Origin: an uncultured Bacteroidota bacterium
Lineage (GTDB): Bacteria; Bacteroidota; Bacteroidia; Chitinophagales; Chitinophagaceae
Assembly (NCBI GenBank): GCA_903882965.1
Contig: CAIRZD010000194.1
Coordinates: forward strand, 1-33,729
Direction: 5' to 3'
DNA length: 33,729 nt
The notes beneath the pieces are model-generated. The model searched no databases, had not been told where the DNA came from, and worked only from the letters and a program-made list of their open reading frames with translations. Below are positions 1,740 through 28,970 of this stretch, in pieces. Numbering within the stretch: the stretch's first letter is position 1; each line of letters opens with the position of its first letter. A program made the position numbers and the translations under genes.

Positions 1740-1761
1740 ATAATTAGAATTAAGGGAATAG

Positions 1762-2832: not shown

Positions 2833-2913
2833 GAAATAGCCTTATAATTATTTACGAAAAAATCACACGCTAGCCGCATACTTTTAGGTTCTCACTTTTA
2901 ACCTCTGACTTAA

Positions 2914-3633
2914 CTACGAATACAACCCTCCGTTCACGGATATCACCTGTGCGGTTATATACCCCGATTCAGGCGAAGCTAGAAACGCTACAGCGTGAGC
3001 CACTTCTTCCGGGTTTCCAAAACGCCTCACCGGTATCAATACCGCCATTTCTTTCTCATCTATACCTGCCGTCATATCTGTTTTTACAAAGCCTGGAGCC
3101 ACTGCGTTTACGGTTATACCCTTCCGCCCTACCTCTTGTGCCAATGCTTTGGTAGCAGCTATCACACCGCCTTTAGCCGCCGAATAATTAGTTTGCCCCG
3201 GCAACCCTTTCAAACCCGAAAGAGAGACAACATTTATTATCCGCCCATATCTTTTGAGCAGCATACTGTTCAGTACAAAACGGGTCACATAAAAGAACCC
3301 ACCCAGGCTGGTATCAATTACTTTATCCCATTGTTCATCCTTCATCCACAGCATTAGCCCGTCATCCTTTATGCCGGCATTGTTTACCAGCACTTCAATA
3401 TATTTCTCCGGGTTAGCCGCTACCCATGCCGCCAGCACTTGCTGCACCTGCTCTTTATCTGCTACATCAAATTGCACTAGCTCTCCGTTCCCCGCTATTT
3501 GCGAAAGCGTATCTTTCGCTTCTGTTTCATTACTCTTATAATTGACCAGCACATAATAACCCATAGCAGCCATCTTTATACAGATAGCTTTTCCTATCCC
3601 CCTCGATCCTCCTGTAACTAATGCACACTTCAT
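2914..3633 (-). CDS. fabG: FabG-like 3-oxoacyl-ACP reductase (SDR family)
   Basis: A 239-residue short-chain dehydrogenase, normal length for FabG. It has the NADPH motif TGGSRGIG (7-14), NNAG (84-87), catalytic Ser137, Tyr150 and Lys154 (YSAAK), and a PGFVKTDM segment. It would reduce beta-keto groups on ACP during polyene chain extension. It sits between TAL (19 bp) and the methyltransferase (81 bp) in the minus arm, so it is probably a pathway-specific paralogue rather than the housekeeping FabG. One oddity is the position usually held by the catalytic Asn (VIDTNLxG), which reads VIDTSLGG here, placing Ser109 where Asn is expected. Confidence 0.88.
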   Translation of the reverse strand: MKCALVTGGSRGIGKAICIKMAAMGYYVLVNYKSNETEAKDTLSQIAGNGELVQFDVADKEQVQQVLAAWVAANPEKYIEVLVNNAGIKDDGLMLWMKDEQWDKVIDTSLGGFFYVTRFVLNSMLLKRYGRIINVVSLSGLKGLPGQTNYSAAKGGVIAATKALAQEVGRKGITVNAVAPGFVKTDMTAGIDEKEMAVLIPVRRFGNPEEVAHAVAFLASPESGYITAQVISVNGGLYS

Positions 3634-3652
3634 CCTATGCTCTTTTCTTTAT

Positions 3653-5200
3653 TTAATTAAATGAATTTATCAGATCTCCCTGCTCAAAAAAGTGCTTCAC
3701 ATTTTCCAGGTCTTTATACTTTGGCTTATCCTCAATAAACCTCGGGAATATCTTTCTTACCTCGTCATAAACCGATTTTGTCTTTGGCGACAATTTTGCG
3801 GCACAATCCAAGTGGTCTATCGCCTGCAATACCGTCATCATCTGTATCGCCAATACTTCAAATGAATTTTCAATTACCCGCCGCGTCATCAATGCCGCAT
3901 TGCAGCCCATGCTCACTATATCCTGGTTATCGTTGTTGCTGGGTATGCTGTGCACATACATCGGGAACGACATGGTCTGGTTCTCTGCCACAGTCGATGT
4001 TGCCGTAAATTGCATTCCCTGCATCCCGAAATTAAGCCCCAGTATACCCGAATTCACAAATGGTGGGAATTTCTGGTTCAGCTTATTATTCAGCAGATAG
4101 TTCAGCTGCCTTTCAGATAGCATGGATAGCTTAGTGATGGCAATTTTAAGCTTATCCATTTCCAGCGATACATAATCTCCGTGAAAATTACCGCCATGAA
4201 AAATGTTTTTGTGCTCATGGTCTATGATCGGGTTATCATTCACTGAGTTCAGTTCATTTACCACCACATCTTCGGCCTGGCATATCGTATCATAAATCGG
4301 CCCCAATATCTGCGTCACGCAGCGCAATGAATAATACTCCTGCACCTTATCTTCAAATACTTCCTGCTCCAGGTGCTCCGGCTGGTACAGATGTTCTGAC
4401 CTGTTGCGGATCATTTTGCTATCCTTCAGCGTATCGCGCAGCATAGTGGCAATTTTATTTTGACCCTTATGATGCTTTACAATATTCAGTTCGTACGAAA
4501 AATGGTCGTCAAATGCCGCCACTACTTCATTCGTCATCGCCGACAGCAATACCGACCATCCCAGTAATTTCTGTGCCTGTATTATATTCACCATACCTAT
4601 ACCCGTCATAGCAGAAGTGCCGTTCAGTACAGCGAGCCCTTCCCGCGTATGAATAGACATTGGTTTTATCCCTGCCTTATTAAATACTTCTGCCGTTGGG
4701 CATATTTTATGTTCATGTATCACCTCACCCTCACCTATCAATACCAGCGCCAGGTGCGCCAGTTGCACCAGGTCGCCGCTCGCACCTACCCCGCCATGTT
4801 CATAGATACAGGGCGTAATGTCTTTGTTTATCATTTCTTTCAGCAACGCTACAACTTCAGTATGCACCCCTGAGTATGCCTGCATCAGGCTGTTCAGCCT
4901 TGCTATCATTAATGCCTTCACCAGCACCGGCGGCAGCAATTTCCCGCCCCCTGATGCATGGCTGCGTATAAGATTGTATTGTAGCTGCAAAAGATTTTCC
5001 TCGCTCACACGGTACTGCGCCATCGGCCCGAAACCGGTATTGATACCATAGATCAGCTTGTTACGCGAAAATTCTTGAAGGAACTCATAATTAATAGCAA
5101 CCTTATCTACTGCGGCATCATTTAATCCTATCTCTTTCTTCTTAAACACAACCTCAGAAAAATCAGCCAAAGAAAGAGCCTTCCCACCAATATATATCAT
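3653..5200 (-). CDS. tal: Tyrosine ammonia-lyase (aromatic amino acid ammonia-lyase)
   Basis: A member of the histidine/phenylalanine/tyrosine ammonia-lyase family, 515 residues from the ATG at 5200. An in-frame upstream start at 5281 would add 27 residues unlike the family, so I reject it. The MIO-forming Ala140-Ser141-Gly142 lies in GGVGASGDLVQLAHLAL, and catalytic Tyr51 is in YGINTGFG. Text such as QLQYNLIRSHASG, EKVQEYYSLRC and YHSIP-type segments closely resembles the Flavobacterium johnsoniae TAL as I recall it. The selectivity pair is Ser80-His81 rather than the His-Leu of Rhodobacter TAL, as in the Flavobacterium enzyme. It would release 4-coumarate from tyrosine, the aryl starter for flexirubin/aryl polyenes. 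It is the first gene of the minus arm. Confidence 0.9.
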   Translation of the reverse strand: MIYIGGKALSLADFSEVVFKKKEIGLNDAAVDKVAINYEFLQEFSRNKLIYGINTGFGPMAQYRVSEENLLQLQYNLIRSHASGGGKLLPPVLVKALMIARLNSLMQAYSGVHTEVVALLKEMINKDITPCIYEHGGVGASGDLVQLAHLALVLIGEGEVIHEHKICPTAEVFNKAGIKPMSIHTREGLAVLNGTSAMTGIGMVNIIQAQKLLGWSVLLSAMTNEVVAAFDDHFSYELNIVKHHKGQNKIATMLRDTLKDSKMIRNRSEHLYQPEHLEQEVFEDKVQEYYSLRCVTQILGPIYDTICQAEDVVVNELNSVNDNPIIDHEHKNIFHGGNFHGDYVSLEMDKLKIAITKLSMLSERQLNYLLNNKLNQKFPPFVNSGILGLNFGMQGMQFTATSTVAENQTMSFPMYVHSIPSNNDNQDIVSMGCNAALMTRRVIENSFEVLAIQMMTVLQAIDHLDCAAKLSPKTKSVYDEVRKIFPRFIEDKPKYKDLENVKHFFEQGDLINSFN

Positions 5201-5391
5201 GAATATTATTTTATAATTTAATGCCTTAAAACCTAAACCGTAAAAGTATAATAAAGATAGCGGATTTCCATTCCTACACATCTGTCAAACACCTTTGGAG
5301 GGTGAGTCTCAAAAAGGTGTATACACTCCCACCCACTTCCCACATCCATTCACTAAATTACATTTAGAACATAAAATGCCTGCAAAAAGAA

Positions 5392-5531
5392 TTAATACCA
5401 ATGGACTTTAAAACACACTTAACTCAACAGACCTTTGCGCGGCGCAAAGCGAGGCTTGGTGAACAGGCTGCGAAAAAGCAATCCCACGAAATCCATTTTT
5501 ATCAACACATTTTAAAGCCCAATTGGTATAA
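5392..5531. repeat. Palindromic repeat element (REP/MITE-like)
   Basis: The left end (5392-5417, beginning TTAATACCAATGGACTTTAA) and the reverse complement of the right end (5504-5531, beginning TTATACCAATTGGGCTTTAA) align over about 26 bases with few mismatches. The interior carries a near-perfect 17-base palindrome, CTTTGCGCGGCGCAAAG, around 5436-5452. This layout suggests a dispersed non-autonomous or REP-like element that landed in the divergent promoter region. Only one copy is seen in this window, so its repetitive nature is inferred. Confidence 0.5.
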
Positions 5532-5551
5532 CCGATTAAATTAAGCCCTAC

Positions 5552-5642
5552 GTAGTGGGTTATAAATCAAAAATATTTAATGCATTTTAAATCAACAGAA
5601 AGATAAATAAAAGATCAACATGAAATTTATAAAACCCACTAC
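5552..5642. repeat. Inverted repeat with GTAGTGGG arms
   Basis: GTAGTGGGTTATAAAT (5552-5567) is mirrored by ATTTATAAAACCCACTAC (5625-5642). The arms pair over 16 bases if two extra bases in the right arm are looped out. They are 57 bp apart, too far for a compact terminator. A paired operator or the ends of a small element are both possible. Confidence 0.4.
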
Positions 5643-5810
5643 CCACACCATTACACCCAACAACCCGAAAATATCAACACCAGATCGACACCATTTTTAT
5701 ACCCCAAGATCCCAAAAACAATATGATTACAGAAAAATCCTCGGTGGGATATTTTTGTGACATTTTGCGGCATTTTGAGACATGTTTAAAAAACACCAAG
5801 TAATATTGAT

Positions 5811-5841
5811 TTTGACCATTAAATAAAGTACATTACTTTTA
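5811..5841 (+). promoter_or_regulatory. Promoter of the ketosynthase (plus-arm) operon
   Basis: TTTG (5811-5814), a 19-base spacer and TACTTTTA (5834-5841) match the Bacteroidota sigma-factor consensus TTTG-N19-TAnnTTTG at all but the last position. Transcription would begin near 5848, about 30 bases before the ATG at 5877. Confidence 0.65.
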
Positions 5842-5876
5842 AAAACTAACAGTACAGCATTAGTAATAACAGCAGA

Positions 5877-7100
5877 ATGAACAGAGTAGTAATCACAGGC
5901 TTGGGTATTTACTCATGTATAGGCTATAACCTCGATGAGGTAAAACGATCATTATATGCCGGCAAGTCAGGGATCATCTATTCACCCGAAAGAAAAGATT
6001 TCGGCTATGCATCCGCACTCACCGGCTTCGTTGACCGCCCAAACCTCAAGGGCCTCCTCGACAGGCGCGCCCGCCTCATGATGCCCGAGCAGGCCGAGTT
6101 TGCCTATGTGGCCACCCAGGAAGCCCTACAAATGGCGCAGATAGACAACAACTTTCTCGAGCAGCACGAAATAGGCTTGCTGTATGGCAATGACAGTTCC
6201 GCAAAGCCCGTCATAGAAGGCGTAGATATCATCCGCGATAAAAAGGACACCATGCTCCTCGGCTCCGGTTACGTTTTCCAAACCATGAACTCTACGGTGA
6301 ACATGAATCTCGCTACCATTTTCAAAATACGTGGCATCAATTTCACCATCAGCGCAGCATGCGCCAGTGGCTCCCATGCCATCGGCTTAGGCTATACATT
6401 CATCAAAAACGGCATGCAGGATTGTGTTATATGCGGTGGCGCCCAGGAAGTAAACCTGTACTCCATGTCGTATTTCGATAGCATCGCCGCATTTTCAAGA
6501 AGAGAAAACGACCCTACCCACGCATCCCGCCCGTTCGATAGGGATAGAGACGGGCTCGTCCCCAGCGGTGGTGCCGCAACCGTTATCCTCGAAAGCCTGG
6601 AATCTGCCCAAAAAAGAGGTGCCAAAATACTCGGCGAAGTCATCGGTTATGGGTTCTCTTCTAATGGCTCCCATATCTCTAACCCCACCGTTGAAGGCCC
6701 CGCCCGCTCCCTCGAAAAAGCATTGATAGATGCCGGCATACAACCCGGAGAGATTGATTATATCAATGCCCATGCTACCTCCACAAAGGCAGGTGATGCC
6801 AGCGAGGCCAAAGCAATAAATACATTATTTGGTGCATCTCGCCCCTATATAAGCTCTACAAAATCCATGACCGGCCACGAATGCTGGATGGCTGGTGCCA
6901 GCGAAATTGTTTATTCTATGCTCATGATGGAAAATAACTTTATCGCACCCAACATCAATTTCGAAAACCCCGATGAAGATAGTGCTCAGTTAAACCTCGT
7001 CACCAATACCCTCGATCACGAATTCGATATCTTTTTATCTAATTCATTCGGTTTTGGCGGTACTAACTCTTCGCTCATTGTTCGTAAATGGAAAGAATAA
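5877..7100 (+). CDS. Beta-ketoacyl-ACP synthase (KAS I/II type) of the flexirubin locus
   Basis: A 407-residue thiolase-fold condensing enzyme with the full Cys-His-His set: Cys162 in SAACASGSHAIG, His299 in NAHATSTKAGD and His334 in KSMTGHECWMAG. The C-terminal FGFGGTNSSL is the usual FabF/FabB signature. It extends acyl-ACP chains by two carbons. Its position at the head of the plus arm, 84 bp before an ACP gene, points to polyene chain elongation rather than bulk fatty-acid synthesis. Aryl polyene and flexirubin clusters normally have two or more such synthases and only this one is present here. Confidence 0.9.
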   Translation: MNRVVITGLGIYSCIGYNLDEVKRSLYAGKSGIIYSPERKDFGYASALTGFVDRPNLKGLLDRRARLMMPEQAEFAYVATQEALQMAQIDNNFLEQHEIGLLYGNDSSAKPVIEGVDIIRDKKDTMLLGSGYVFQTMNSTVNMNLATIFKIRGINFTISAACASGSHAIGLGYTFIKNGMQDCVICGGAQEVNLYSMSYFDSIAAFSRRENDPTHASRPFDRDRDGLVPSGGAATVILESLESAQKRGAKILGEVIGYGFSSNGSHISNPTVEGPARSLEKALIDAGIQPGEIDYINAHATSTKAGDASEAKAINTLFGASRPYISSTKSMTGHECWMAGASEIVYSMLMMENNFIAPNINFENPDEDSAQLNLVTNTLDHEFDIFLSNSFGFGGTNSSLIVRKWKE

Positions 7101-7172
7101 ATGAATCACACACTTTAAAATAAAATTTATTTAAAACACAATTAAACCTTAACAGATTTGTGATAAAAAAAT

Positions 7173-7180
7173 TATATTTG
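7173..7180 (+). promoter_or_regulatory. Possible internal promoter box before the ACP gene
   Basis: TATATTTG is an exact match to the Bacteroidota -7 consensus TAnnTTTG and ends only four bases before the ACP start codon at 7185. A TTG lies upstream, but the spacer is about 14 rather than 19 bases. If used, the transcript would be leaderless or nearly so. Confidence 0.35.
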
Positions 7181-7184
7181 CCCT

Positions 7185-7439
7185 ATGGATAGCAGTGTTA
7201 TACAAAAAATAAATGATTTGTTAATTGAAGAGTTTGAGGTCGCACCGGAAACTATTACCCCTGATGCAAGCCTGAAAGAAACCCTTGATCTCGATAGCCT
7301 CGACTATATCGACCTGATAGCAATTACCGAAGCTAATTTCGGTTGTAAAGTAAAACCCGAAGATTTTAATAATATCGTCACATTCAGCGATTTCTACAAT
7401 TATATAGACGCACATGTAAAGGTGAAGGCAGTGATATGA
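7185..7439 (+). CDS. Acyl carrier protein
   Basis: An 84-residue acidic four-helix carrier protein, normal ACP length. The phosphopantetheine attachment site is Ser38 in LDLDSLDYIDL. It would carry the growing aryl-polyene or acyl chain for the adjacent ketosynthase and FabG-like reductase. The stop codon overlaps the start of the acyltransferase gene by 4 bp (ATGA), which implies translational coupling. Being inside the pigment locus, it is probably a dedicated ACP and not the housekeeping AcpP. Confidence 0.92.
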   Translation: MDSSVIQKINDLLIEEFEVAPETITPDASLKETLDLDSLDYIDLIAITEANFGCKVKPEDFNNIVTFSDFYNYIDAHVKVKAVI

Positions 7440-8313
7440 CGCAATCCTGGGAAGGAAGATCAAAAGGAAATAAACTAGGCTACAGCATATTTATTTGGTT
7501 ATTACGGGTTGGCGGGTTGCGTCCCGCTTATTTTTTATTACGGTTTGTTGCTTTCTATTACTTTTTGTTTTCGTCTTCACACAGGTATATATATGGCTAT
7601 TTCCACAAAAGACTAGGATTCAGCCGGTGGCGTTCATTAACCGGTATCTATCGCAATTATTATCTTTTTGGGCAAACGCTTATTGATAAGATAGTTGTTA
7701 TGTCTGGTTTAAAAGCTCCCTATACTTTTGTTTTTGAAGGCGAGCACTATATCGAAGAAATTATGGCCGCCGGAAAAGGAGGCATACTCATCAGCGCGCA
7801 TATCGGTAATTATGAACTGGCAGGTTATTATTTTAAAAGGCTTCCTGTTAAAGTGAACATTATAATGGTAGATAATGAACAACAGCAAATAAAACAATAC
7901 CTCGAATCCGTGATGAACGACCGTAAACTGAATATCATTACCATCAAAGATGACCTCTCACATATTTACGAGATAAGCAATGCTTTAAAAAATAATGAAC
8001 TGATTGCCATTCATGCTGATAGATTTGTGAAAGGCAGCAAAACCATTAGTGGCAATTTCCTTGGTGAAAACGCTGATTTTCCCATGGGGCCATTTGTATT
8101 GGCTACTACTTTTAAGGTGCCCGTGTCTTATGTGTTTTGTGTCAAAGAGGCTTCCACACATTACCACTTATCTGCCACTGCACCCAAAGAATACACCGAA
8201 AATAAACAGATTGCCATACCTGCCGCGCTAAACGATTATATAACCGAACTCGAAAAAAAACAACCCAGTACCCCGAGCAATGGTTTAACTATTATAACTT
8301 TTGGGCAAGTTGA
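7436..8313 (+). CDS. LpxL/HtrB-like acyltransferase, frameshifted near the 3' end
   Basis: A lysophospholipid acyltransferase-type protein with an N-terminal membrane segment (about residues 29-46) and the catalytic H-x4-E motif in AHIGNYELAG (His122, Glu127). Members of flexirubin/aryl-polyene clusters attach the acyl or aryl chain to a lipid anchor. As sequenced, the frame runs on to 8437 with an atypical tail. Reading the -1 frame after an eight-A run at about 8252-8260 gives TTQYPEQWFNYYNFW and then a stop at 8311-8313. That tail is what the family normally ends with. One extra A would restore the gene. A sequencing slip, a real mutation, or slippage on the A run are possible. I annotate the restored gene; the out-of-frame extension to 8437 is not a real C-terminus. 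Confidence 0.8.
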
Positions 8314-9062
8314 GATCGAAAACTTTTTATATCGCCGGCATAATAATAATAGCCCTGATGGCCATACTATTGCCATGGTATTATTGTTTGCTGTGCTCTC
8401 TGCTCTTTCTTACAATACTTTTCCTTGCATGCATTAACCTTTCGTGGAATTTTTTCATACCAATAACATGCAAAGCACAAACAAACGAAAAAGCGGTAGC
8501 ATTATCTTTCGACGATGGCCCTGCCGCTTGGACTAACCAGATCCTGGATACATTAAAGCAGTACAATGTGCCTGCCACCTTTTTCTGCATTGGCAAAAAT
8601 ATTTCCGGCAATGAGCAAACACTCATAAGGATAAACGCAGAAGGCCACTTGATAGGCAACCACAGCTACTCACACCATTTTTGGTTCGACATGCTCAGCT
8701 CCCAAAAAATGCTCGCGGATATGCAACTAATGAGTAAAGAAGCTGTTGCAATAACAGGCCTGGAACCGCTCTTATTCCGCCCTCCATATGGGGTTATGAA
8801 TCCAAATCTTGCACGTGCAATTAAAAAAGGTCAATTTATGCCCATCAGCTGGAGTATCCGCTCGTTTGATACAACTATTAAAGACAAACAAAAATTATTA
8901 TCCCGTATAATTACAAAAGTAAAGCCCGGCGATATTATTTTGCTCCACGATTCAATGGAAATTACTGCAACTATTTTACCTGAACTGATCCAACAACTCA
9001 TGAGCAAAGGCTACAAAATAGGCCGGCTCGATAAAATGCTTAATATTAATGCCTATGCCTAG
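8301..9062 (+). CDS. Polysaccharide deacetylase (NodB domain), membrane-anchored
   Basis: Starts at TTG 8301, overlapping the restored acyltransferase end by 13 bp. An in-frame ATG at 8358 is an alternative start. Residues 9-56 hold two hydrophobic segments. The NodB homology domain then follows in order: motif 1 SFDDGP with Asp71-Asp72, zinc-binding His121 and His125 in NHSYSH, motif 3 RPPYG at 160-164, and a late LLHDS with the catalytic His. Length is about 250 residues. Polysaccharide deacetylase genes occur in several flexirubin clusters, where their substrate is unknown; a peptidoglycan or glycan role is equally possible. It is tightly packed with its neighbours, so cotranscription is likely. 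Confidence 0.85.
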   Translation: MGKLRSKTFYIAGIIIIALMAILLPWYYCLLCSLLFLTILFLACINLSWNFFIPITCKAQTNEKAVALSFDDGPAAWTNQILDTLKQYNVPATFFCIGKNISGNEQTLIRINAEGHLIGNHSYSHHFWFDMLSSQKMLADMQLMSKEAVAITGLEPLLFRPPYGVMNPNLARAIKKGQFMPISWSIRSFDTTIKDKQKLLSRIITKVKPGDIILLHDSMEITATILPELIQQLMSKGYKIGRLDKMLNINAYA

Positions 9063-9696
9063 ATTTCATAAACTCATCTTATTCTGCTGCTGCCTGTTTG
9101 CGTTACACGCTAACGCCCAGCATCCCGGCTACAAGCAAATCTCAAACACTGACGATTTCAGGCAGCAATTCGCTAAGGCCTCACAAGCCACACATTCCAT
9201 TCAGTGCGATTTTGTGCAGGAAAAAAACCTGAGTATGTTGTCAGACAAAATTGTTTCTACAGGGAAATTCTGGTTCAAACGGGAAAACAAAGTGCGCATG
9301 GAATACCAGAAACCTACTTACTACCTTCTTGTTATCAATGGCAACATGATAAAAACAAAAGACAACCAAAAAGAAAACAAGGTGTCTTCCAAGTCAAACA
9401 AGATGTTTGAACAGGTAAATAAAATGATGATTGACTGTGTACAAGGCACAGTGCTCAGCAACAGTAGTTTTACTGCCCGTGTATATGAAAACGCTTCTTC
9501 TTACCTTGTAGAGTTATTACCCACTGTTAAAAGTCTGCAAAATATATTTAAAAGCATTGATCTCGTTATTGATAAAAAAGATTACTCCGCTTTAAAAATG
9601 GAAATGTGGGAGCAATCTGGTGATAATACAATTATTACTTTTACACATAAACAAATGAACATAAATATTTCCGATGAGGTGTTTTCAGTTAATTAA
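9049..9696 (+). CDS. LolA-like outer-membrane lipoprotein carrier
   Basis: A 215-residue periplasmic protein with a signal peptide (residues 3-23, ending in ANAQ) and the LolA pattern: CDFVQEKNLSMLSDKIVSTGKFWFKRENKVRMEYQKP, where a hydrophobic-strand fold follows the FxQ motif. The start at 9049 overlaps the deacetylase by 14 bp; Met3 at 9055 is equally possible. LolA-like proteins are standard in aryl-polyene and flexirubin clusters and are thought to move the lipid-linked pigment across the periplasm. It is probably distinct from the housekeeping LolA that serves lipoproteins. Confidence 0.8.
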   Translation: MPMPRFHKLILFCCCLFALHANAQHPGYKQISNTDDFRQQFAKASQATHSIQCDFVQEKNLSMLSDKIVSTGKFWFKRENKVRMEYQKPTYYLLVINGNMIKTKDNQKENKVSSKSNKMFEQVNKMMIDCVQGTVLSNSSFTARVYENASSYLVELLPTVKSLQNIFKSIDLVIDKKDYSALKMEMWEQSGDNTIITFTHKQMNINISDEVFSVN

Positions 9697-21174: not shown

Positions 21175-21915
21175 TTATTTACCCATTCTCCTGAGTACTT
21201 TTTCCACATCTTCAGGTGTATCAATGCAATGACTTTCGAAATGCGTTATAACGCATTTCACCTTAAAGCCGTGCTCCAGCCAACGCAGCTGTTCTAACGA
21301 CTCAGCCTGCTCTAAGGAGGAAACAGGAATTACAGAAATCTTCTCGAGTACATCTCTGCGGTATGCATACATGCCTACATGGCGGTGATAAGTAAAGTGT
21401 TTGTGCCAATCTTTTTCATCTACTCCTTTTATAAACGGAATTACCATGCGGCTGAAATAAAGGGCCTCCATTTTGTCATTGAGCACTATTTTCACTTCAC
21501 CAAGATCAAACAGCTCTTCGTAATTGCTGACAGGTATCATTTGCGTCGCAAGTTCCGTGGTACCATCCTGTAGCACCGCAGCGAGCTCATCTATCTGCTG
21601 TGGGTCTATAAAAGGTTCATCACCCTGTATATTGATCACGTACTTGTAAGCGGAGCCTAATTGTTGCAATGCTTCCTTACAGCGGTCTGTACCATTAGCA
21701 TGATCTGCCGCAGTCATTAATACCTCCCCTCCAAACGACTGCACATGATTGAAAATGCGCTCGTCATCGGTAGCAACCACTAATTTATCCAGCGACTTAC
21801 TCATTGCCGCCTGCTCATATACACGCCGGATCATACTTTTGCCCTGAATATCAATAAGTGATTTGCCCGGGAAACGGGTAGATGCATACCTTGCGGGGAT
21901 TATACCTGCTATCAT
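21175..21915 (-). CDS. kdsB: CMP-Kdo (CMP-Kdo8N) synthetase
   Basis: A 246-residue 3-deoxy-manno-octulosonate cytidylyltransferase. The N-terminal AGIIPARYASTRFPGKSL is the CTP-binding signature, and VVATDDERI and INIQGDEPFI are further family motifs. Length is normal (about 245-255). It activates Kdo as the CMP-sugar. Since kdnA and kdnB are in the same operon, the amino form Kdo8N is probably its natural substrate, as for the Shewanella enzyme. It is the last gene of the operon, overlapping kdsC by 4 bp (ATGA), and a terminator stem follows about 28 bp beyond its stop. Confidence 0.92.
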   Translation of the reverse strand: MIAGIIPARYASTRFPGKSLIDIQGKSMIRRVYEQAAMSKSLDKLVVATDDERIFNHVQSFGGEVLMTAADHANGTDRCKEALQQLGSAYKYVINIQGDEPFIDPQQIDELAAVLQDGTTELATQMIPVSNYEELFDLGEVKIVLNDKMEALYFSRMVIPFIKGVDEKDWHKHFTYHRHVGMYAYRRDVLEKISVIPVSSLEQAESLEQLRWLEHGFKVKCVITHFESHCIDTPEDVEKVLRRMGK

Positions 21916-22625
21916 TGTGGTGATCGTTCTATTATGTTAGGTTCAACGGAAGTGTAATGAACAGTATCCGGAATATTGCGGGCATATAAGTATTCACGAT
22001 AATCGTCTGAAAAATGTACCCGCTGCATGATAGTTTCGTCAAAGCGGCCAGTGAGCCCCATCAATAATTCAACAGCTTCCCTCAACGCATTATTCCCACC
22101 GCTATTACGGGTAATGTAATCTGCCAGGTTATTTTCCTTTACCAGGTTTTGAAACATGGGATTACAATCATGGCCTATCATAATACGCAACCCGCACACC
22201 CCTGCTATTGAAAGGTCAAGAACATCATCAAAGAAAAAAGCTACCTCATGTGGCTCTATATTATGCTCATTGCATAAATGAGCCAATGCTTCACTTTTGT
22301 TCTTCATCTTATAATATACCGAATGAAAATGCTCCCGTTTTGCAAGTGTGAAAGCAGAGGTGTTTTTTTCACCGGAAATAACAGCGACCAAAGGGTTATG
22401 CCCCATGCGAAGAAAATGATTGAACCGGAGCATGTTGATGCCCATTGAATCTATTTCATTATATGGGCTGGAACCACTTTCGTTTTTTTCACCACTATTA
22501 AAAACCCCATCCCAATCGAAGACATAGGCTTTTATCTTCACCAACTTGTCATATATCACAGCAGGTTCCGAAAGGAACCTGCCCATGAATAATTGTTTTA
22601 TTTGCTGAAAATCGGTAAAGCCCAT
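21912..22625 (-). CDS. kdsC: KdsC-like HAD phosphatase (Kdo-8-phosphate phosphatase)
   Basis: A 237-residue HAD-superfamily phosphatase. Motif I FDWDGVFNSG contains the two Asp of DxD. AVISGEKN is motif II, a lysine in KNKSEAL fits motif III, and FFFDDVLDLSIAG fits motif IV. KdsC is usually about 170-190 residues. Here there are roughly 30 extra residues before the core and about 35 after it. It would remove the 8-phosphate from Kdo-8-P so that KdnB can act on the free 8-hydroxyl. It lies between the transaldolase-CBS gene (25 bp) and kdsB (overlap). Confidence 0.85.
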   Translation of the reverse strand: MGFTDFQQIKQLFMGRFLSEPAVIYDKLVKIKAYVFDWDGVFNSGEKNESGSSPYNEIDSMGINMLRFNHFLRMGHNPLVAVISGEKNTSAFTLAKREHFHSVYYKMKNKSEALAHLCNEHNIEPHEVAFFFDDVLDLSIAGVCGLRIMIGHDCNPMFQNLVKENNLADYITRNSGGNNALREAVELLMGLTGRFDETIMQRVHFSDDYREYLYARNIPDTVHYTSVEPNIIERSPQ

Positions 22626-22650: not shown

Positions 22651-23664
22651 TTAATACTTCTTCAGATCCTGGATGTCAAGCATACCAAATGGTTTGCCAT
22701 TTTCTGTAACAAGAATTGTATCTACACTGTTTTTCTTAAAAATACCTTGTGCCTCATTCAGCAATGCATTTGCATCCACACTGATCGGCGCTTTATATTC
22801 AAGACTACCTATTTTTTTGCTTAAAATATCCTGGCCATCTTTCTGGAGTAAACGCCTCAGGTCACCATCAGTAAATACACCCTTCAGGCTGCCATCTTCA
22901 TTAACAACCGTGATACAGCCAAAACCGTATTCAGTCATCTTTACAATAGCATCTTTAAGGTTAGTGTCTGCTTTCACCAATGGGTTGGTGCCATTTATTG
23001 CCTCTTTTACTCTTACAGTCATCAACCTGGTATCTGTAAGGAATTGCTCCGTACCAACAGTAGTGAAATTATTATCAGTAAGCCCTTTCAATATTTTCAA
23101 TGGTACAGTGATCGTATGTGCACCCACATTAATGGCATTACGCACATGCTCTGTAGTACGTACGGAACTAAACATTATTTTGGTGTTGTAGCCATAACGC
23201 TCTACCGCAATAACACACTGTTCCACAAGTGCCAATGCATCATGCCCCTGGTCTTGCAGGCGGCCTACCAACGGGCAAACATATGTTGCTCCCGCATGCA
23301 TAGCCATATAAGCCTGTTGAAGTGTATAAACAAGGTGCACGTTTACAAGCAACCCTTCATTGCGCAATAATTTGCAGGCACGCACACCTTCTAACGATAC
23401 CGGTATTTTGAATACAGTACGGGTAGGGTCAAGACCCAGGTCCAACTGGCGGCGGGCTTCTTTTACTACATCTTCAGCTGTATCGCCTAATGCCTCGATC
23501 TGTAATACAGGCACCATTTTAGACAACTTTACAATAGTGCCGTCTACATCAGTTATGCCTTCACGCTGCATAAACGTAGGTGTGGTAGTCAAACCATTCA
23601 AGAATCCTAATTTAAAGCCTTCTTCAATTTCTTTGAGATTGGCTGAATCGAGGTATAATTCCAT
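22651..23664 (-). CDS. Transaldolase/fructose-6-P-aldolase-like domain fused to KdsD-type CBS pair
   Basis: A 337-residue fusion. Residues 1-218 are a small transaldolase/FSA-like barrel: start MELYLDSANL with Asp6, Schiff-base Lys86 in VFKIPV, and Glu57 at the usual acid position. Residues 222-337 are two CBS domains. The string GVFTDGDLRRLL (262-273) closely matches the CBS part of KdsD (arabinose-5-phosphate isomerase). The usual KdsD SIS domain is absent. Several active-site positions differ from FSA: TTTP instead of TTNP (Thr28), His110 where Thr is usual, Cys130, and Leu132 where FSA has Tyr131. The gene is inside the Kdo8N operon. A plausible role is to supply arabinose-5-phosphate by aldol addition of glycolaldehyde to glyceraldehyde-3-phosphate, a reaction known for E. 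coli FSA. This is inference; a regulatory role is the alternative. Confidence 0.85.
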   Translation of the reverse strand: MELYLDSANLKEIEEGFKLGFLNGLTTTPTFMQREGITDVDGTIVKLSKMVPVLQIEALGDTAEDVVKEARRQLDLGLDPTRTVFKIPVSLEGVRACKLLRNEGLLVNVHLVYTLQQAYMAMHAGATYVCPLVGRLQDQGHDALALVEQCVIAVERYGYNTKIMFSSVRTTEHVRNAINVGAHTITVPLKILKGLTDNNFTTVGTEQFLTDTRLMTVRVKEAINGTNPLVKADTNLKDAIVKMTEYGFGCITVVNEDGSLKGVFTDGDLRRLLQKDGQDILSKKIGSLEYKAPISVDANALLNEAQGIFKKNSVDTILVTENGKPFGMLDIQDLKKY

Positions 23665-23691: not shown

Positions 23692-24108
23692 TCATTGTAC
23701 GTATTTTCTAAAAAATCTTTCCGGATCAAGTACCTGTATATCTGAGAAATAAAAATCATCGAGATCATTACTCACTATACAAGTGCAATCTGAATGTAAA
23801 GCCGCATAATACTGAAGGCCGTCTTCAAAATCATGCACCTTTTTGTTTTGTATTGCCGAAACAGCCTCTTTATGCCCACAATCTGCAATACTTAAATGCT
23901 TCACCAGCAAGCTTATTTTCTCTTTTGCTTTAACCTGCCCATGTTTTTTCTCAGCAAAATAATATGCTATCGCAAGGCAAATATTCGTTGTAACCAATGT
24001 TGTATCCTTTTTGCCAGCCATACTTAATACCCGCGAGGTATAAATATATGACGGGTACTCTTTATTAAGAACCGAAACAAGAATATTTGCATCCAGAAAA
24101 AACTTCAT
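23692..24108 (-). CDS. PIN-domain toxin (VapC-like)
   Basis: A 138-residue PIN-domain protein of the PIN_3 type: FLDANILV with Asp6 at the start, TTNICLAIAYYF in the middle, and DFEDGLQYYAALHSDCTCIVSNDLDDF (Asp96, Asp115) near the end. Such proteins are Mg-dependent RNases that cut tRNA or other RNA. It overlaps the antitoxin gene by 4 bp (ATGA), so the two are translated together, and it lies 27 bp before the transaldolase-CBS start. The required acidic residues are present, so it should be active. Confidence 0.85.
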   Translation of the reverse strand: MKFFLDANILVSVLNKEYPSYIYTSRVLSMAGKKDTTLVTTNICLAIAYYFAEKKHGQVKAKEKISLLVKHLSIADCGHKEAVSAIQNKKVHDFEDGLQYYAALHSDCTCIVSNDLDDFYFSDIQVLDPERFFRKYVQ

Positions 24109-24359
24109 TTCTTTCTATTATAGTATTCGTCTTTAACAGCATTGCGTTTACGGGGAGTAATATACTCTGCTTCTCCTTCAGATACTGTATTTACCCAATC
24201 AGCTACGGGAATATCTTCTATACTATGATAACCTCCTGACGTAGCCTTGCGTAATAAGATCTCCGTAAGCCTGCTGAGACTTATTCCATGGTTTTCTGCG
24301 TAATGCTTTGCCTTATCAATGATATTGGCGTCAAAGCTTAAAGTTACTTTAGCATCCAT
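24105..24359 (-). CDS. Antitoxin partner of the PIN toxin (RHH-like, DUF6364 type)
   Basis: An 84-residue protein with a ribbon-helix-helix-like N-terminus: a short strand (AKVTLSFD), then two helices (IIDKAKHYAENHG, SLSRLTEILLRKA). The charged C-terminal tail is the likely toxin-binding part. It directly precedes the PIN gene, the standard order of such modules. A promoter with two direct repeats lies immediately upstream, which fits autoregulation by the antitoxin. The pair interrupts the Kdo8N operon between kdsA and the transaldolase-CBS gene. Confidence 0.8.
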   Translation of the reverse strand: MDAKVTLSFDANIIDKAKHYAENHGISLSRLTEILLRKATSGGYHSIEDIPVADWVNTVSEGEAEYITPRKRNAVKDEYYNRKK

Positions 24360-24425: not shown

Positions 24426-25259
24426 TTATTGTCGGTATTTCACTTCTATAGTATGCAACTCTAAAAGTGGCTTTAAAAATTCTTCTAATTTATATACACT
24501 AAGCTGGCTTGCTGCATCACAAAGGGCTTTTTCCGGCTCAGGGTGTGTTTCTATAAAAATACCATCTACACCTGCTGCCACACCTGCATAGCTAAGTACG
24601 GGTAAAAACTCTCTTGCACCGCCTTTTGCATCAGCACTTGGGATACCGTACTTACGAATAGAATGCGTAATATCAAACACAACCGGATAACCTAACTGCG
24701 ATAAATGATAAAAACTGCGGGGATCAACAACAAGGTCATTATAACCCATCGTATATCCACGCTCAGTAAGTATTATCTGGTCATTACCACTCTCCAGGCA
24801 TTTGGCAACAGGGTGTTTCATATTCTCCGGTGCCAGAAACTGGCCATGTTTAATATTTACAACCTTACCCGTTTTTGCAGCAGCAACCATAAGGCCCGAT
24901 TGCATACAGAGATAAGCAGGTATCTGCAATATATCACAAACCTCACCAGCAGGTGCAGCCTGGTCCGGGTAATGAATATCTGTTAACAGTGTAAAACCAA
25001 ATTGCTCTTTAACCTTGGCAAGTATCTTCAACCCTTTATCCAAGCCCGGGCCATCGTAATATTTGAGGCTGCTGCGGTTATCTTTTAAGAAAGAAGACTT
25101 GTAAATGATTGGGATATTCAGCTTAGCACTCACCTCTTTCAGCTTTTCGGCCGTTTTCATCATAATCATTTCATCCTCTATAACGCAAGGACCTGATATA
25201 AGGAACAGCTCATCTGCGCCACAATTGATATTGCCTACTTTTATTTTCTTATTACTCAT
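24426..25259 (-). CDS. kdsA: 3-deoxy-8-phosphooctulonate synthase (Kdo-8-P synthase)
   Basis: A 277-residue barrel enzyme that condenses PEP with arabinose-5-phosphate to Kdo-8-phosphate. It has LISGPCVIED at the N-terminus, IIYKSSFLKDNRSS (PEP/A5P-binding), LTDIH, NIKHGQF, TERGYTMGYNDLVVDPRS and FDITHS. A Cys metal ligand seems absent at its usual place (NCGADELF), and NGTSMCS is not seen, so the metal-dependent or -independent class needs alignment. It follows kdnB after 28 bp and precedes the toxin-antitoxin promoter by about 15 bp. Its substrate A5P is the compound whose source is unclear here. Confidence 0.93.
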   Translation of the reverse strand: MSNKKIKVGNINCGADELFLISGPCVIEDEMIMMKTAEKLKEVSAKLNIPIIYKSSFLKDNRSSLKYYDGPGLDKGLKILAKVKEQFGFTLLTDIHYPDQAAPAGEVCDILQIPAYLCMQSGLMVAAAKTGKVVNIKHGQFLAPENMKHPVAKCLESGNDQIILTERGYTMGYNDLVVDPRSFYHLSQLGYPVVFDITHSIRKYGIPSADAKGGAREFLPVLSYAGVAAGVDGIFIETHPEPEKALCDAASQLSVYKLEEFLKPLLELHTIEVKYRQ

Positions 25260-25287: not shown

Positions 25288-26373
25288 TTACATTCTTTTA
25301 TACAAATCCTTAATAGTATCTATCGTTACCTTTTCTTTCCAGTCTGCGCCAATAGCATGATTCCACATATGTGGGAGGTTGTATGCCACTTCAGCCATTG
25401 CTGTTATCGTTTCGTCACTCCAGACTTTACTCAATCCTTGCGGCAGTTGCACCTTATGCGTCTTTAGCATTTGCTTCAGCTCCCTAACCCCTTCGCCATA
25501 ATAATCCTCCAAATGCTGGAAAGCGAGACAATTTGCATAACAATGTTTCTCACCCAAAATTTTAGACAACCCGTAAGATAACGCATGGCATACGCCTACC
25601 TCTGAATAAGTGAGACTGAGGCCACCCATCATTGAGGCCACCATAAGCTTATCATCATTATCGGGTGTTTGCCCTGCTTTTTCTCCGAGATATATTTCAC
25701 GGCACAATTTCAATGACTGCTCTGCATATGCGTGGCTGTATGCATTATTCAGTGTTCCGTTCTCTGATTCTATACAATGAATATAAGTATCCATCCCTGT
25801 ATACAACCATTTATCAACCGGCACAGAAACAATAAGCTCCGGATCAAGTATCACCTGGTTAAAAACCGTCCAGTCACATTTCAGCCCGAGTTTCTTTACT
25901 GGGCCGGTAAGTACTGCCGTCATAGATACTTCAGCACCCGTACCTGAAATTGTAGGCACGCCCAAATGGTATATACCCGGCTTTTTAATAAGATTTAAAC
26001 CCTGGTATAATACAGAAGAGCCTTCATTGGTAAACATCAATGAAATTGCCTTTGCAATATCCATAATGCTGCCGCCGCCAATACCTATAACACCTGCGGG
26101 CAAACCTTTAGATGCTAATATCTCATCACGAAGGCTATCGATCTGATCAGTGGTCGGTTCATGAGGATCTACATCTATAAAACGTACCACATCTGCAGCA
26201 GTAGCCGGTATACGACTTTCCAACTCTTTACCTTTAAAGTAATTGTCTACTACAAAGAGAAAGAATTTGTCATGCTCATTGCGTTTTTCTGCAAGAATGC
26301 CTTCCATATTGGCAAAACTGCCACGACCGAAAACTACTTTATCTATGTTTTTAAAATTCTTATGCATCAGCAA
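25288..26373 (-). CDS. kdnB: Kdo 8-oxidase, iron-type alcohol dehydrogenase family
   Basis: A 361-residue Fe-ADH/dehydroquinate-synthase-like dehydrogenase. The N-terminal FKNIDKVVFGRGSFANM, IGIGGGSIMDIAKA (NAD site), PTISGTGAEVSMTAVLTGP, GMDTYIHCIES and VCHALSYGLS with KHCYANC (metal-binding Asp/His residues) closely resemble Shewanella KdnB as I recall it. KdnB oxidises the C8 hydroxyl of Kdo to an aldehyde that KdnA then aminates. It lies 20 bp after kdnA and 28 bp before kdsA, so cotranscription is very likely. Function is inferred from family and from the exact pairing with kdnA. Confidence 0.87.
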   Translation of the reverse strand: MLMHKNFKNIDKVVFGRGSFANMEGILAEKRNEHDKFFLFVVDNYFKGKELESRIPATAADVVRFIDVDPHEPTTDQIDSLRDEILASKGLPAGVIGIGGGSIMDIAKAISLMFTNEGSSVLYQGLNLIKKPGIYHLGVPTISGTGAEVSMTAVLTGPVKKLGLKCDWTVFNQVILDPELIVSVPVDKWLYTGMDTYIHCIESENGTLNNAYSHAYAEQSLKLCREIYLGEKAGQTPDNDDKLMVASMMGGLSLTYSEVGVCHALSYGLSKILGEKHCYANCLAFQHLEDYYGEGVRELKQMLKTHKVQLPQGLSKVWSDETITAMAEVAYNLPHMWNHAIGADWKEKVTIDTIKDLYKRM

Positions 26374-26393: not shown

Positions 26394-27599
26394 TTATGCG
26401 TGAACCGGCATTGCTTTCTTAGCGCAAGCTGCGATATTATTCGCCAGGCTTTTCACTTCTTCTTCCGTCCATGTGCAGCGGATAACAAACGAAATAAGCC
26501 TACCCACCACTTCCTGCGATTTTGGTAAATGAAGGTTATTATAATCCTGTGGCATACCAAGCACCTGTGCCGTGAGCGGAGATGCCGTTTTCATATTCTT
26601 TAGATGATCCCATTGGTTGATAAAGTGGTACATGTTCAGATACCAGTAGTTAAACCCACCTATACCTGCTTTGTTTAGCTCATCAACTGTTTGCTTTGCA
26701 ATCTCAGTATCCGGCATTAAAATATTTAAGAATGTAGCCGAATCTCCTGCAGGATCAGTAAGTTCAGAAAATGAAATACCTTCTGTTTGAGAAAGAATAT
26801 CCGTCAACATCTTCTTGTATTTCCTGTTCACTTCGCGGATATGCGGCACTTTGCGCGTTTGCGCCACGCCTACAGCAGCATGCAATTCGCTGATACGGTA
26901 ATTAAAACCCAGTACAGGGTGTTGCTCCATGCCACGGTTATTGCCTACATGATTATGCCCGTGATCTGAATAGGCATCGGCAAGCTTGTATATCTCTTCA
27001 TCATTAGTAATAAATACCCCACCCTCGCCTGCTGTCGCTATCTTGAAAAAGTCGAACGAAAAGCTACCGGCTTTACCAAACAACCCAACCGATGTGCCCT
27101 TATAAGACGCGCCAAAAGCCTGGCCTGCATCTTCTACAAGTATCAGGTTATGCTCTTTCGCCACAGCCATTATGCCATCCATATCAGCCATTGTGCCGCA
27201 CATATGCACAAGACAAATGCCCTTTGTTTTCGGTGTGATTGCTTTTTTTATTCCTTCTGCGCTTAGGCATAGCGTTTCATCGATCTCTGCAAAAACAGGG
27301 ATCGCACCTATAAACAATACCGCTTCAACACTGGCTATAAATGTAAACGGAGGTACAATAACCTCATCACCGGCACCTAAACCTGAAGCAGCCATAGCGA
27401 TGGCAATAGCAGCAGAACCATTGGAAACCGCGTGCGCATATTTGGCTCCGGTTATTTTTCTCACTTCCGCTTCAAAATCACGGGCTTTCCATATCCCATT
27501 GCGTTGCTGGTCGTGATTGTAACGGAAAAGCATCCCCGTTTCCAATACATCATTTATTTCTTTGCGTTCTTCATTTCCAAAAAGTTCTGTTCCTGGCAT
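26394..27599 (-). CDS. kdnA: 8-amino-3,8-dideoxy-octulosonate transaminase
   Basis: A 401-residue PLP-dependent DegT/DnrJ/EryC1/StrS aminotransferase. The start MPGTELFGNEERKEINDVLE, the RYNHDQ segment and the SDHGHNHVGNNRGMEQHP region closely match Shewanella KdnA as I recall it. PLP contacts are Asp157 (LVEDAGQAFG) and the internal aldimine Lys186 (SFDFFKIATAGEGG). It aminates the C8 aldehyde made by KdnB, giving Kdo8N. The gene begins 111 bp after the waaA stop and has its own possible promoter. Amino-Kdo adds a positive charge to the LPS inner core and blocks steps that need the C8 hydroxyl. Confidence 0.88.
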   Translation of the reverse strand: MPGTELFGNEERKEINDVLETGMLFRYNHDQQRNGIWKARDFEAEVRKITGAKYAHAVSNGSAAIAIAMAASGLGAGDEVIVPPFTFIASVEAVLFIGAIPVFAEIDETLCLSAEGIKKAITPKTKGICLVHMCGTMADMDGIMAVAKEHNLILVEDAGQAFGASYKGTSVGLFGKAGSFSFDFFKIATAGEGGVFITNDEEIYKLADAYSDHGHNHVGNNRGMEQHPVLGFNYRISELHAAVGVAQTRKVPHIREVNRKYKKMLTDILSQTEGISFSELTDPAGDSATFLNILMPDTEIAKQTVDELNKAGIGGFNYWYLNMYHFINQWDHLKNMKTASPLTAQVLGMPQDYNNLHLPKSQEVVGRLISFVIRCTWTEEEVKSLANNIAACAKKAMPVHA

Positions 27600-27710: not shown

Positions 27711-28970
27711 TTATCTAATATCCAGCCACTTTGACCACTTTATTTGCTCCATGATCATTGTTGTGGCACCTGTATGCTCTGTCATAAATGTTTTCAGCGA
27801 ATTACTAATCGAGAGCCTGTATTGTTCATTTACAATCAGTTTTTCAAGTATTATTTTGCACCCGGCCGCGTCATTTACCGGGAAAACGTACTCCAGAGCC
27901 ACTAGTTGTTTTGCTTCTACAAACTTTTCAAATATCGGGCCAAATATTACAGGTACACCAAAAACCGCCGGCTCTAGTATATTATGTATCCCCCCTTTCT
28001 GAAACCCACCTCCTATAAATGCAATATCGGCATAGGCAAACAAACGGGACAGCATCCCTATATTATTAATGATCAGTACTTTTTTATCATGCCCTGTATT
28101 CTCAGCGTCAAGGTCTGAAAAAAGGATGTTATTATCAAAAAGCTGTTCCACTTTACGGATATGCGCTTCATCTATTTCATGCGGAACAATAATAAGTTTC
28201 CAGTTTTCGGGCAACACGGAAATGCAATCTTTGAGTACATTTTCATCGCCTGGCCATGTGCTGCCTGCAATAAGTATTTTATGATCTCCTTTAAATTGCT
28301 CTATGGCAGAAATCGGCGTTACATTTTTCTCAATAACCGATACTCTGTCGTAACGGGTATCCCCGGATATCAATACGTTCTTATGAATCCCAATAGTAGC
28401 CAGCATGCTTTTAGATGCTTCATCCTGGAGAAAATAACAACTAAAGCATTGTAGCATATCTCTGAATATACTTCCGTACCATCTAAAGAATGGTTGTCCC
28501 TGCCTGAATGCTCCTGAAATAAGCAATGCAGGCACTCTCTGTATCTTTAGTTGTGTGAGGTAATAATACCAAAACTCATATTTTACAAATAGCGCTATAG
28601 TAGGGTTTATGATACTTATAAACCGCTCCGCATTTCGTTTACTATCGTGTGGCAAGTAAAAAATATAATCGGCAAGGGGGCTGTTTCTACAAGCTTCGTA
28701 GCCCGATGGAGAGAAGAAAGTGACCATGATCTTGTATACAGGATATTCTATACGGATAGCTTCGATCAACGGTTTTGCTTGCTCAAATTCGCCCATTGAT
28801 GAGCAGTGTACCCATATCCTCTTTTCACCCGGATTGAGTGCATTACTGATATTATGCTGCCAATCCTTTCTTCCCGCTATCCATTTCTTCGCCTTATTAT
28901 TAAAGAGTGCATATATTTTGATGGCTAAATAATAAAGGAAAAGAAAAAGATTATACAGGATCAACATCAA
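27711..28970 (-). CDS. waaA: Kdo transferase (3-deoxy-manno-octulosonate transferase)
   Basis: A 419-residue GT30 enzyme, normal length. An N-terminal membrane anchor (about 1-22) precedes the glycosyltransferase. The acceptor-side motif CSSMGEFEQAKPLIEAI contains the catalytic Glu, and the C-terminal half has ISGDTRYDRV, LIAGSTWPGDENVL and AFIGGGFQKGGIHNILEPAVFGVPVIFGP, the CMP-Kdo-binding region. It transfers Kdo, or here Kdo8N, from CMP-sugar to lipid IVA at the cytoplasmic face of the inner membrane. Whether it adds one or two residues cannot be told. It is the first gene of the locus and is followed by kdnA after 111 bp. Confidence 0.93.
   Translation of the reverse strand: MMLILYNLFLFLYYLAIKIYALFNNKAKKWIAGRKDWQHNISNALNPGEKRIWVHCSSMGEFEQAKPLIEAIRIEYPVYKIMVTFFSPSGYEACRNSPLADYIFYLPHDSKRNAERFISIINPTIALFVKYEFWYYYLTQLKIQRVPALLISGAFRQGQPFFRWYGSIFRDMLQCFSCYFLQDEASKSMLATIGIHKNVLISGDTRYDRVSVIEKNVTPISAIEQFKGDHKILIAGSTWPGDENVLKDCISVLPENWKLIIVPHEIDEAHIRKVEQLFDNNILFSDLDAENTGHDKKVLIINNIGMLSRLFAYADIAFIGGGFQKGGIHNILEPAVFGVPVIFGPIFEKFVEAKQLVALEYVFPVNDAAGCKIILEKLIVNEQYRLSISNSLKTFMTEHTGATTMIMEQIKWSKWLDIR

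Follow-up and report, generated by a model that had tools for sequence, protein, structure and literature searches.

The known synthesis of 3-deoxy-D-manno-octulosonate (Kdo), a sugar of the outer membrane, starts from D-arabinose 5-phosphate (A5P), which is made by an isomerase with a SIS domain. What, then, feeds KdsA in an uncultured Chitinophagaceae bacterium (phylum Bacteroidota) whose Kdo operon encodes, where this isomerase (KdsD) might be expected, a fusion of a transaldolase-like barrel with a pair of CBS domains? The locus lies in contig CAIRZD010000194.1 of the assembly GCA_903882965.1; its positions 1 to 33,729 were analyzed and are referred to below as the window. The first-pass annotation of this sequence had proposed that the fusion stands in for KdsD as an aldolase-based source of the KdsA substrate. 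Comparative genomics supports the replacement of KdsD by the fusion well. We propose, with a probability of slightly more than one half (about 0.52), that the fusion replaces KdsD in Kdo synthesis by supplying an aldose phosphate, most likely A5P, to a co-inherited KdsA.

A transaldolase-like barrel joined to a CBS pair

The domain composition given in the first-pass annotation, namely a barrel of the fructose 6-phosphate aldolase (FSA)/transaldolase type joined to two CBS domains, is borne out by the profile searches. Pfam places TAL_FSA (PF00923) at residues 3-201 of the fusion (E 9.8e-35; 120.7 bits against a cut-off of 27) and detects two CBS stretches (E 1.2e-16). The SIS domain, said in that annotation to be missing, was indeed not found in the fusion by the Pfam scan at E <= 0.001, and in NCBIfam the KpsF/KdsD model TIGR00393 covers only the CBS part, residues 193-328, scoring 65 bits where the cut-off is 203.7. 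With the FSA equivalog TIGR00875, the barrel scores 163 bits, below the cut-off of 245.95. The closest relatives of the barrel in the Protein Data Bank (PDB) are small transaldolases (3r8r, 1vpx and 3s0c), and the closest chains for the CBS part belong to the A5P isomerases 4o9k (62 bits), 3fna (40) and 3k2v (37), followed by 9sr9 and 2yzi (31 each).

The string GVFTDGDLRR in the CBS part had been described as KdsD-like. The string does occur in the fusion, its counterpart in E. coli KdsD being GIFTDGDLRR, but it is shared, in the forms GVLTDGDLRR, GSLTDGDLRR and GALTDGDLRR, by other CBS proteins. For this reason, and given the lack of resolution in the CBS tree, we reject the GDLRR string as proof of an origin from KdsD. 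In that tree (55 rows, with L183 and L186 left out as long branches), the CBS pairs of the fusions form one clade (support 96/87) and those of KpsF another (95/86); the best topology keeps the two apart, and forced grouping of both is neither supported nor rejected (approximately unbiased test, p 0.278).

KdsD is mostly not found where the fusion occurs

A KdsD-type SIS protein elsewhere in the genome, for which the first-pass annotation had suggested a search, was not found in the window genome (95.3% complete, 508 contigs). Four SIS matches were detected in this genome: two in a single 613-residue frame, which the two domains mark as probably GlmS-like, one in a PGI/PMI-type protein that scores over its NCBIfam cut-off, and one in a GmhA-like protein (203 bits against the gmhA cut-off of 209). 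The KpsF model matches the CBS part of the fusion, that of a 503-residue frame and, weakly, SIS stretches of the same GlmS-like, PGI/PMI-type and GmhA-like proteins. We therefore reject the explanation that a KdsD has been missed in the window genome. The closed genome of another fusion carrier (G517) agrees: neither a KpsF (at E <= 1e-30) nor a KdsD-type SIS frame was detected there, the SIS frames of this genome being a two-SIS frame of 618 residues, one of 372 residues and a weak one of 234 residues.

Across the Bacteroidota, lack of KdsD and presence of the fusion go together, which supports the claim that the fusion is present in place of KdsD. In a set of 296 Bacteroidota genomes, each 90% complete or better, KpsF was detected in 211 (E up to 1e-30) and KdsA in 219 (E up to 1e-50). 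Within the KdsA-bearing 219, KdsD was not found in 5/5 genomes with the fusion, as against 4/214 of the others (Fisher p 3e-8, with related genomes treated as independent). The window's family, counted as 82 genomes within a sample of the order, shows the same pattern, KdsD not being found in seven of the eight members with the fusion and in one of the 74 without it (p 1.7e-8, again with related genomes treated as independent). Two genera (g5 and g155) each include one fusion genome without KpsF beside relatives that have KpsF and no fusion. In a further set of 36 fusion genomes, KpsF scored over the cut-off in a single one (G316) and KdsA was found in 35, all except G317; this set, and the set of 40 fusion genomes used below, may contain near-duplicates, G316/G485 and G308/G517 each apparently being one genome.

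The fusion also occupies a place in the gene order equivalent to that of KdsD. In 32 of 36 native genomes, chosen by hand from the rows listed, kdsA and kpsF share a strand and are at most 2.5 kb apart, the four exceptions being members of the window's family with kpsF located elsewhere; in E. coli, kdsD adjoins kdsC. A plain transaldolase homologue is additionally encoded in four of the five fusion genomes among the matches listed, and a second match is counted for the fifth, G292, so that the fusion is not simply the pentose-phosphate enzyme of these organisms.

Distribution and genomic context of the fusion

Full-length fusions are encoded in five of the 296 Bacteroidota genomes (72-100% identity, the window's own included), and the next best among the matches listed are plain barrels with at most 39% identity. 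Within the window's order, the fusion was found in 9 of 248 genomes, in one of them at 60% identity. A scan of GTDB yielded 491 relatives; the best 80 of these, on which the locus counts given here rest, are all full-length fusions with 80-93% identity. Because full-length homologues at 60-93% identity recur in many genomes, the fusion is not a product of chance. An artefact of assembly or of reading was likewise rejected in view of the 80 further full-length loci, and spread on plasmids was rejected because, of the 84 plasmid records matched at E <= 1e-20, none covers 80% of the protein. Two of the records, L061 and L106, are labelled Azovibrio and Candidatus Saccharibacteria; their fusions are 81-84% identical to those of Bacteroidota, and the records are probably mislabelled bins.

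In 74 of the 80 loci, the fusion shares its strand with kdsA, kdsC-like or kdsB genes. A kdsA gene is present on the strand of the fusion in 59 loci, and 15 loci have a kdsC-like gene without kdsA, 13 of these together with kdsB. The gap between kdsA and the fusion gene is at most 100 nucleotides in 29 of the 59 loci, 101-500 nucleotides in four and more than 500 nucleotides in 26. KdnB, the Kdo 8-oxidase involved in the synthesis of 8-amino-3,8-dideoxy-octulosonate (Kdo8N), is matched (E up to 1e-60) in 34 of 40 fusion genomes. In the remaining six no KdnB match was found at this threshold; three of these (G394, G317 and G325) are possibly incomplete, and the others are G292, G415 and the closed G517. 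The fusion genomes without a KdnB match weaken a Kdo8N-specific role, and the link of the fusion to Kdo8N looks incidental.

A distinct KdsA accompanies the fusion

The KdsA proteins from fusion loci or fusion genomes are 76-94% identical to the KdsA of the window (its own copy aside), whereas 16 native Bacteroidota sequences share 44-52% identity with it. In a tree of 38 rows, all fusion-associated KdsA fall into one clade with support of 100/100. Eleven positions separate the fusion-associated from the native group, and five of the changes are exact switches (A61D, F117Y, R120M, K139H and Q205R in E. coli numbering), each found in 72/72 fusion-associated rows (62 distinct) with the original residue in 16/16 native ones. 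Within the A5P motif, N62, R63 and S64 are conserved throughout the 72 rows. Among the PDB alignments listed, which number five, position 61 is alanine in all and position 120 is arginine in four; the fifth, 1t8x, has a glycine, which we take to be a deliberate R106G mutation. R120 and Q205 are presumably A5P contacts, with R120 reaching into the site from the neighbouring subunit. In a model of the Neisseria Kdo 8-phosphate synthase, the inhibitor contacts are Asn57, Arg58, Lys133, Arg163 and His197 (PMC6650799).

In view of these switches, the two enzymes changed as a pair, and the partner would be either a co-adapted KdsA that uses A5P or a KdsA with another substrate. Pairwise distances between fusions and between the KdsA proteins correlate (r = 0.73; 58 loci). 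One genome (G296, the source of locus L042) carries a KdsA gene of the fusion type and, besides it, a native-type copy (L153; 46% identical to that of the window).

Active site and proposed reaction

For analysis of the active site, the barrels of 85 fusion loci were aligned with 28 plain Bacteroidota homologues and with E. coli FsaA and TalB, and subsequently 80 distinct fusion barrels were compared, including the one with 60% identity. The residues D6, E57, K86, N108, R135, S167 and R169 are kept in 85/85 loci and 80/80 distinct barrels, and T26 in 80/80 distinct barrels. For a related transaldolase, a catalytic triad D6-E61-K89 and the sugar-orienting residues N111 and S133 have been described (PMC11659671), and these match D6, E57, K86, N108 and position 130 of the fusion. 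Against this conserved background, five positions in or by the pocket are switched, 80/80 distinct fusions differing from 28/28 plain homologues by N28T, T110H, S130C, F132L and D137Q; A166S follows the same pattern. At a threshold of 97% per group, 22 of the 212 columns are fixed but different between the groups (two of them being gaps in the plain homologues) and 40 are fixed and the same, so that the pocket switches are part of a wider divergence.

E57 and N108 of the fusion are as in TalB and unlike those of FsaA, and position 132 corresponds to F178 of TalB. Replacement of an active-site phenylalanine by tyrosine reportedly confers aldolase activity on a transaldolase, and we take the phenylalanine in question to be F178. 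Positions 28 and 130 presumably contact the C1 hydroxyl of the donor in transaldolases; if they do, the loss of both residues would fit a two-carbon donor. A one-pot synthesis of A5P with FSA is said to exist, judging from a title cited in work on nucleoside synthesis. The formation by FSA of an arabino product, or A5P, from glycolaldehyde and glyceraldehyde 3-phosphate, on which the first-pass annotation relied, is in print: E. coli FsaA serves as an A5P aldolase in a four-enzyme pathway from these two compounds in vitro and, when overexpressed, in vivo (PMC9947464, which also names the TalB mutant F178Y), and FSA has been used in nucleoside synthesis, where its product has the arabino configuration (PMC11821518).

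A predicted reaction of the fusion, with putative substrates, product and CBS ligand, can be outlined as follows. Glycolaldehyde, a two-carbon aldehyde, would be bound by K86 as a Schiff base; R135, S167 and R169 would hold D-glyceraldehyde 3-phosphate, to which the resulting enamine would add. Such class I aldol chemistry, with the arabino stereochemistry of FSA, would yield A5P. The CBS pair may tune the rate on sensing a nucleotide, for which the pathway end product, cytidine monophosphate (CMP)-Kdo or CMP-Kdo8N, is a candidate; CMP-Kdo is named as a possible ligand because 4o9k was reportedly solved with this compound bound.

Several observations weigh against A5P supply by the fusion. The weakest point is the source of glycolaldehyde: transketolase alone releases erythrulose and not glycolaldehyde (PMC7403953), and hence would not be an easy source. 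An E. coli kdsD gutQ double mutant requires added A5P (PMC11301363) even though E. coli K-12 has fsaA and talB, which implies that ordinary levels of such enzymes are insufficient in that organism. The pocket of the fusion departs from those of FSA and transaldolase, the five pocket positions in which the fusion is unlike its plain homologues suggest that its reaction may differ from that of FSA, and the partner KdsA has methionine at the position of R120 along with other changes near the A5P site. On the genomic side, 21 of the 80 loci lack kdsA, six of them having the fusion alone, with some loci cut by contig ends, and in one genome (G190) kdsA and the fusion, both present, are on different contigs. 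The genome G485/G316, whose two entries agree in their KpsF coordinates, carries KdsD in addition to the fusion; this KpsF looks native, with 65-68% identity to its counterparts in the five closest members of the family that were compared (65% for two from its own genus). Conversely, four KdsA-bearing genomes (G023, G200, G268 and G284) and one member of the window's family (G499) have neither KdsD nor the fusion, which indicates that KdsD absence has other causes too, possibly assembly gaps or further replacements.

Alternative explanations

The fusion and its co-diverged KdsA could form a parallel route, in which the fusion would act as a class I aldolase that builds an aldose phosphate other than the product of KdsD, leading either to a different Kdo-type acid or to Kdo without any link to ribulose 5-phosphate; we consider this rather unlikely.

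The role could also be the one proposed here with other chemistry behind it. The Schiff-base lysine might convert ribose 5-phosphate, or ribulose 5-phosphate, into A5P within the active site, by retro-aldol cleavage and re-addition with inversion at C2 or by an enaminol shift. No free glycolaldehyde would be needed, and the supply problem noted above would disappear. H110, which replaces a threonine invariant in the plain homologues in 80/80 distinct fusions, could be the new acid/base, and the phosphate-binding residues would suit any pentose 5-phosphate. No member of the transaldolase family is known to perform such a conversion, which counts against this scheme; in our view it is rather improbable. 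A precedent from another enzyme is dihydroneopterin aldolase, which interconverts dihydroneopterin and dihydromonapterin beside releasing glycolaldehyde (PMC1971073).

The altered partner KdsA also leaves room for a sugar other than A5P. The fusion and this KdsA might make and use a different aldose phosphate, and the product of the operon would then be a Kdo-like acid unlike Kdo. The evidence in favor is the joint change of both enzymes, with a KdsA clade of its own (100/100), 44-52% identity to native KdsA and five exact switches. Yet N62, R63 and S64 are kept in all 72 rows, the KdsA of the window scores over the cut-off of the equivalog TIGR01362, the operon includes kdsB and waaA, and R205 might compensate for the lost R120. 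We consider a different sugar unlikely.

Alternatively, A5P might come from another enzyme, such as GlmS, or from spontaneous isomerisation, with the fusion acting elsewhere in the pathway, in folate synthesis or in a purely regulatory capacity. GlmS-like two-SIS frames are present in 11/11 fusion genomes examined. E. coli, however, has GlmS too, and the A5P requirement of its kdsD gutQ mutant counts against this source. The GlmS relative GFAT from humans converts ribulose 5-phosphate to A5P by isomerisation; the kdsD gutQ mutant of E. coli is complemented by GFAT of human or yeast origin, but not by a Trypanosoma cruzi GFAT (PMC11301363). For folate synthesis, the prediction of a transaldolase-family protein as dihydroneopterin aldolase (PMC1971073) can be cited, but no folate genes were found among the operon genes scanned with Pfam and NCBIfam. 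Moreover, the fusion travels with a single KdsA clade even where the two are unlinked, as in G190, and the absence of KdsD follows the fusion. We consider another source of A5P quite unlikely. A true transaldolase that would remove dihydroxyacetone from octulose 8-phosphate, a transketolase product from glucose 6-phosphate (for the underlying chemistry, see PMC5854111), and leave A5P is very improbable. E57 and N108 are as in TalB and not as in FsaA, but cysteine at the position of the sugar-orienting serine (PMC11659671) and threonine in place of N28 are a poor fit to a retained dihydroxyacetone donor.

The operon in the window

On the minus strand, the genes are arranged in the order waaA, kdnA, kdnB, kdsA, an antitoxin/PIN pair, the fusion, a divergent kdsC-like HAD phosphatase and kdsB (Table 1). 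The first-pass annotation had located the fusion between kdsA and kdsC, and this order holds, although in the window the antitoxin/PIN pair separates kdsA from the fusion. The assignment of the locus to Kdo8N synthesis proved sound, the matches to the solved enzymes being far above those to other families except for 3rf7. The aminotransferase matches the 8-amino-3,8-dideoxy-octulosonate transaminase 5k8b, with the next solved relative at 185 bits, and the iron-dependent alcohol dehydrogenase matches the Kdo 8-oxidase 5k8c, followed by 3rf7 at 404 bits and then by a relative at 88 bits; KdnB is described as a Kdo 8-oxidase in PMC5125639.

Table 1. Fusion gene, its functional parts and neighbouring genes in the window
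Feature	Position	Strand	Evidence
Fusion of transaldolase/FSA-like barrel and CBS pair, 337 aa	22651..23664	-	Pfam, NCBIfam, open reading frame
Transaldolase/FSA barrel, residues ~1-214	23023..23664	-	Pfam 3-201; alignment with FsaA, TalB and 28 plain homologues
K86, Schiff-base lysine position of the barrel	codon 23407-23409	-	Alignment
Switched pocket positions T28; H110; C130; L132	23581-23583; 23335-23337; 23275-23277; 23269-23271	-	Alignment
CBS pair, residues ~215-337	22654..23022	-	Pfam; closest PDB chains are the A5P isomerases 4o9k, 3fna, 3k2v (their CBS pairs)
KdsC-like HAD phosphatase, divergent	21912..22625	-	NCBIfam NF007019, 55 bits against cut-off 208; no Pfam match at E <= 0.001
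kdsB, CMP-Kdo synthetase	21175..21915	-	TIGR00466, 212 bits, over cut-off 155.2
kdsA, fusion-associated clade	24426..25259	-	TIGR01362, 329.5 bits, over cut-off 314; clade 100/100
Probable toxin with a PIN domain, encoded between kdsA and the fusion	23692..24108	-	PF13470
Probable antitoxin of 84 aa; overlaps the start codon of the PIN gene	24105..24359	-	Read from the sequence
kdnB, Kdo 8-oxidase	25288..26373	-	5k8c, 419 bits
kdnA, Kdo8N transaminase	26394..27599	-	5k8b, 445 bits
waaA (kdtA), Kdo transferase	27711..28970	-	PF04413 over cut-off; NF004388, 181 bits, below cut-off 438

The PIN protein of the window is matched in 11 of the 80 related loci, and in one of these (L068) it lies between waaA and kdnA instead. 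Eight closely related loci (L039-L046) have kdsB after the fusion, with no match to the kdsC-like protein of the window. At a distance from the operon, positions 489-9696 of the window encode a halogenase-like FAD protein, an O-methyltransferase, a short-chain dehydrogenase, an aromatic amino acid lyase, a ketosynthase, and lipid A acyltransferase-like and LolA-like proteins; this gene set is reminiscent of a flexirubin or aryl polyene cluster.

Relation to known systems

To our knowledge, an aldolase route to A5P has been met only in synthetic pathways. A published account of the fusion, or of a natural aldolase route to Kdo, was not found, judging by titles and the opening lines of abstracts, among the matches listed in the open PMC literature, a collection that leaves subscription journals mostly outside. 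The fusion is a known fold in an unusual architecture, with a role in the pathway that is probably new. If the proposed role is correct, there is a second, unrelated route to the substrate of KdsA and a natural example of the aldolase route to A5P; pathway annotation would change in a group of environmental Bacteroidota, and genomes that seem unable to make Kdo would be explained.

With one of the known systems, the Kdo8N operon of Shewanella oneidensis, the window has KdnA and KdnB in common, whose solved structures it matches strongly; the fusion, for its part, is also present in genomes where no KdnB match was found. The predicted dihydroneopterin aldolase folB2 is comparable in that a transaldolase-like fold has been proposed for a reaction of a C2 compound (glycolaldehyde) in a biosynthetic cluster; this role in folate synthesis, in a step that releases glycolaldehyde, is a prediction awaiting validation, the pathway is another one, and the text consulted makes no mention of a CBS pair for folB2 (PMC1971073). 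With FSA and the small transaldolases (PF00923; FsaA, 3r8r, 1vpx and 3s0c), the fusion shares the barrel, the Schiff-base lysine, the catalytic Asp/Glu and the phosphate-binding Arg/Ser, and differs from them in the CBS pair, the five switched pocket positions and a score below the FSA equivalog cut-off. From KdsD, KpsF and GutQ, which combine a SIS domain with a CBS pair, the fusion differs in the lack of SIS, in its unrelated fold and presumably in its chemistry. Nevertheless, its CBS pair is most like theirs among the PDB matches, it fills the same slot in the pathway, by kdsA or kdsC, and across genomes the fusion and these isomerases are nearly mutually exclusive.
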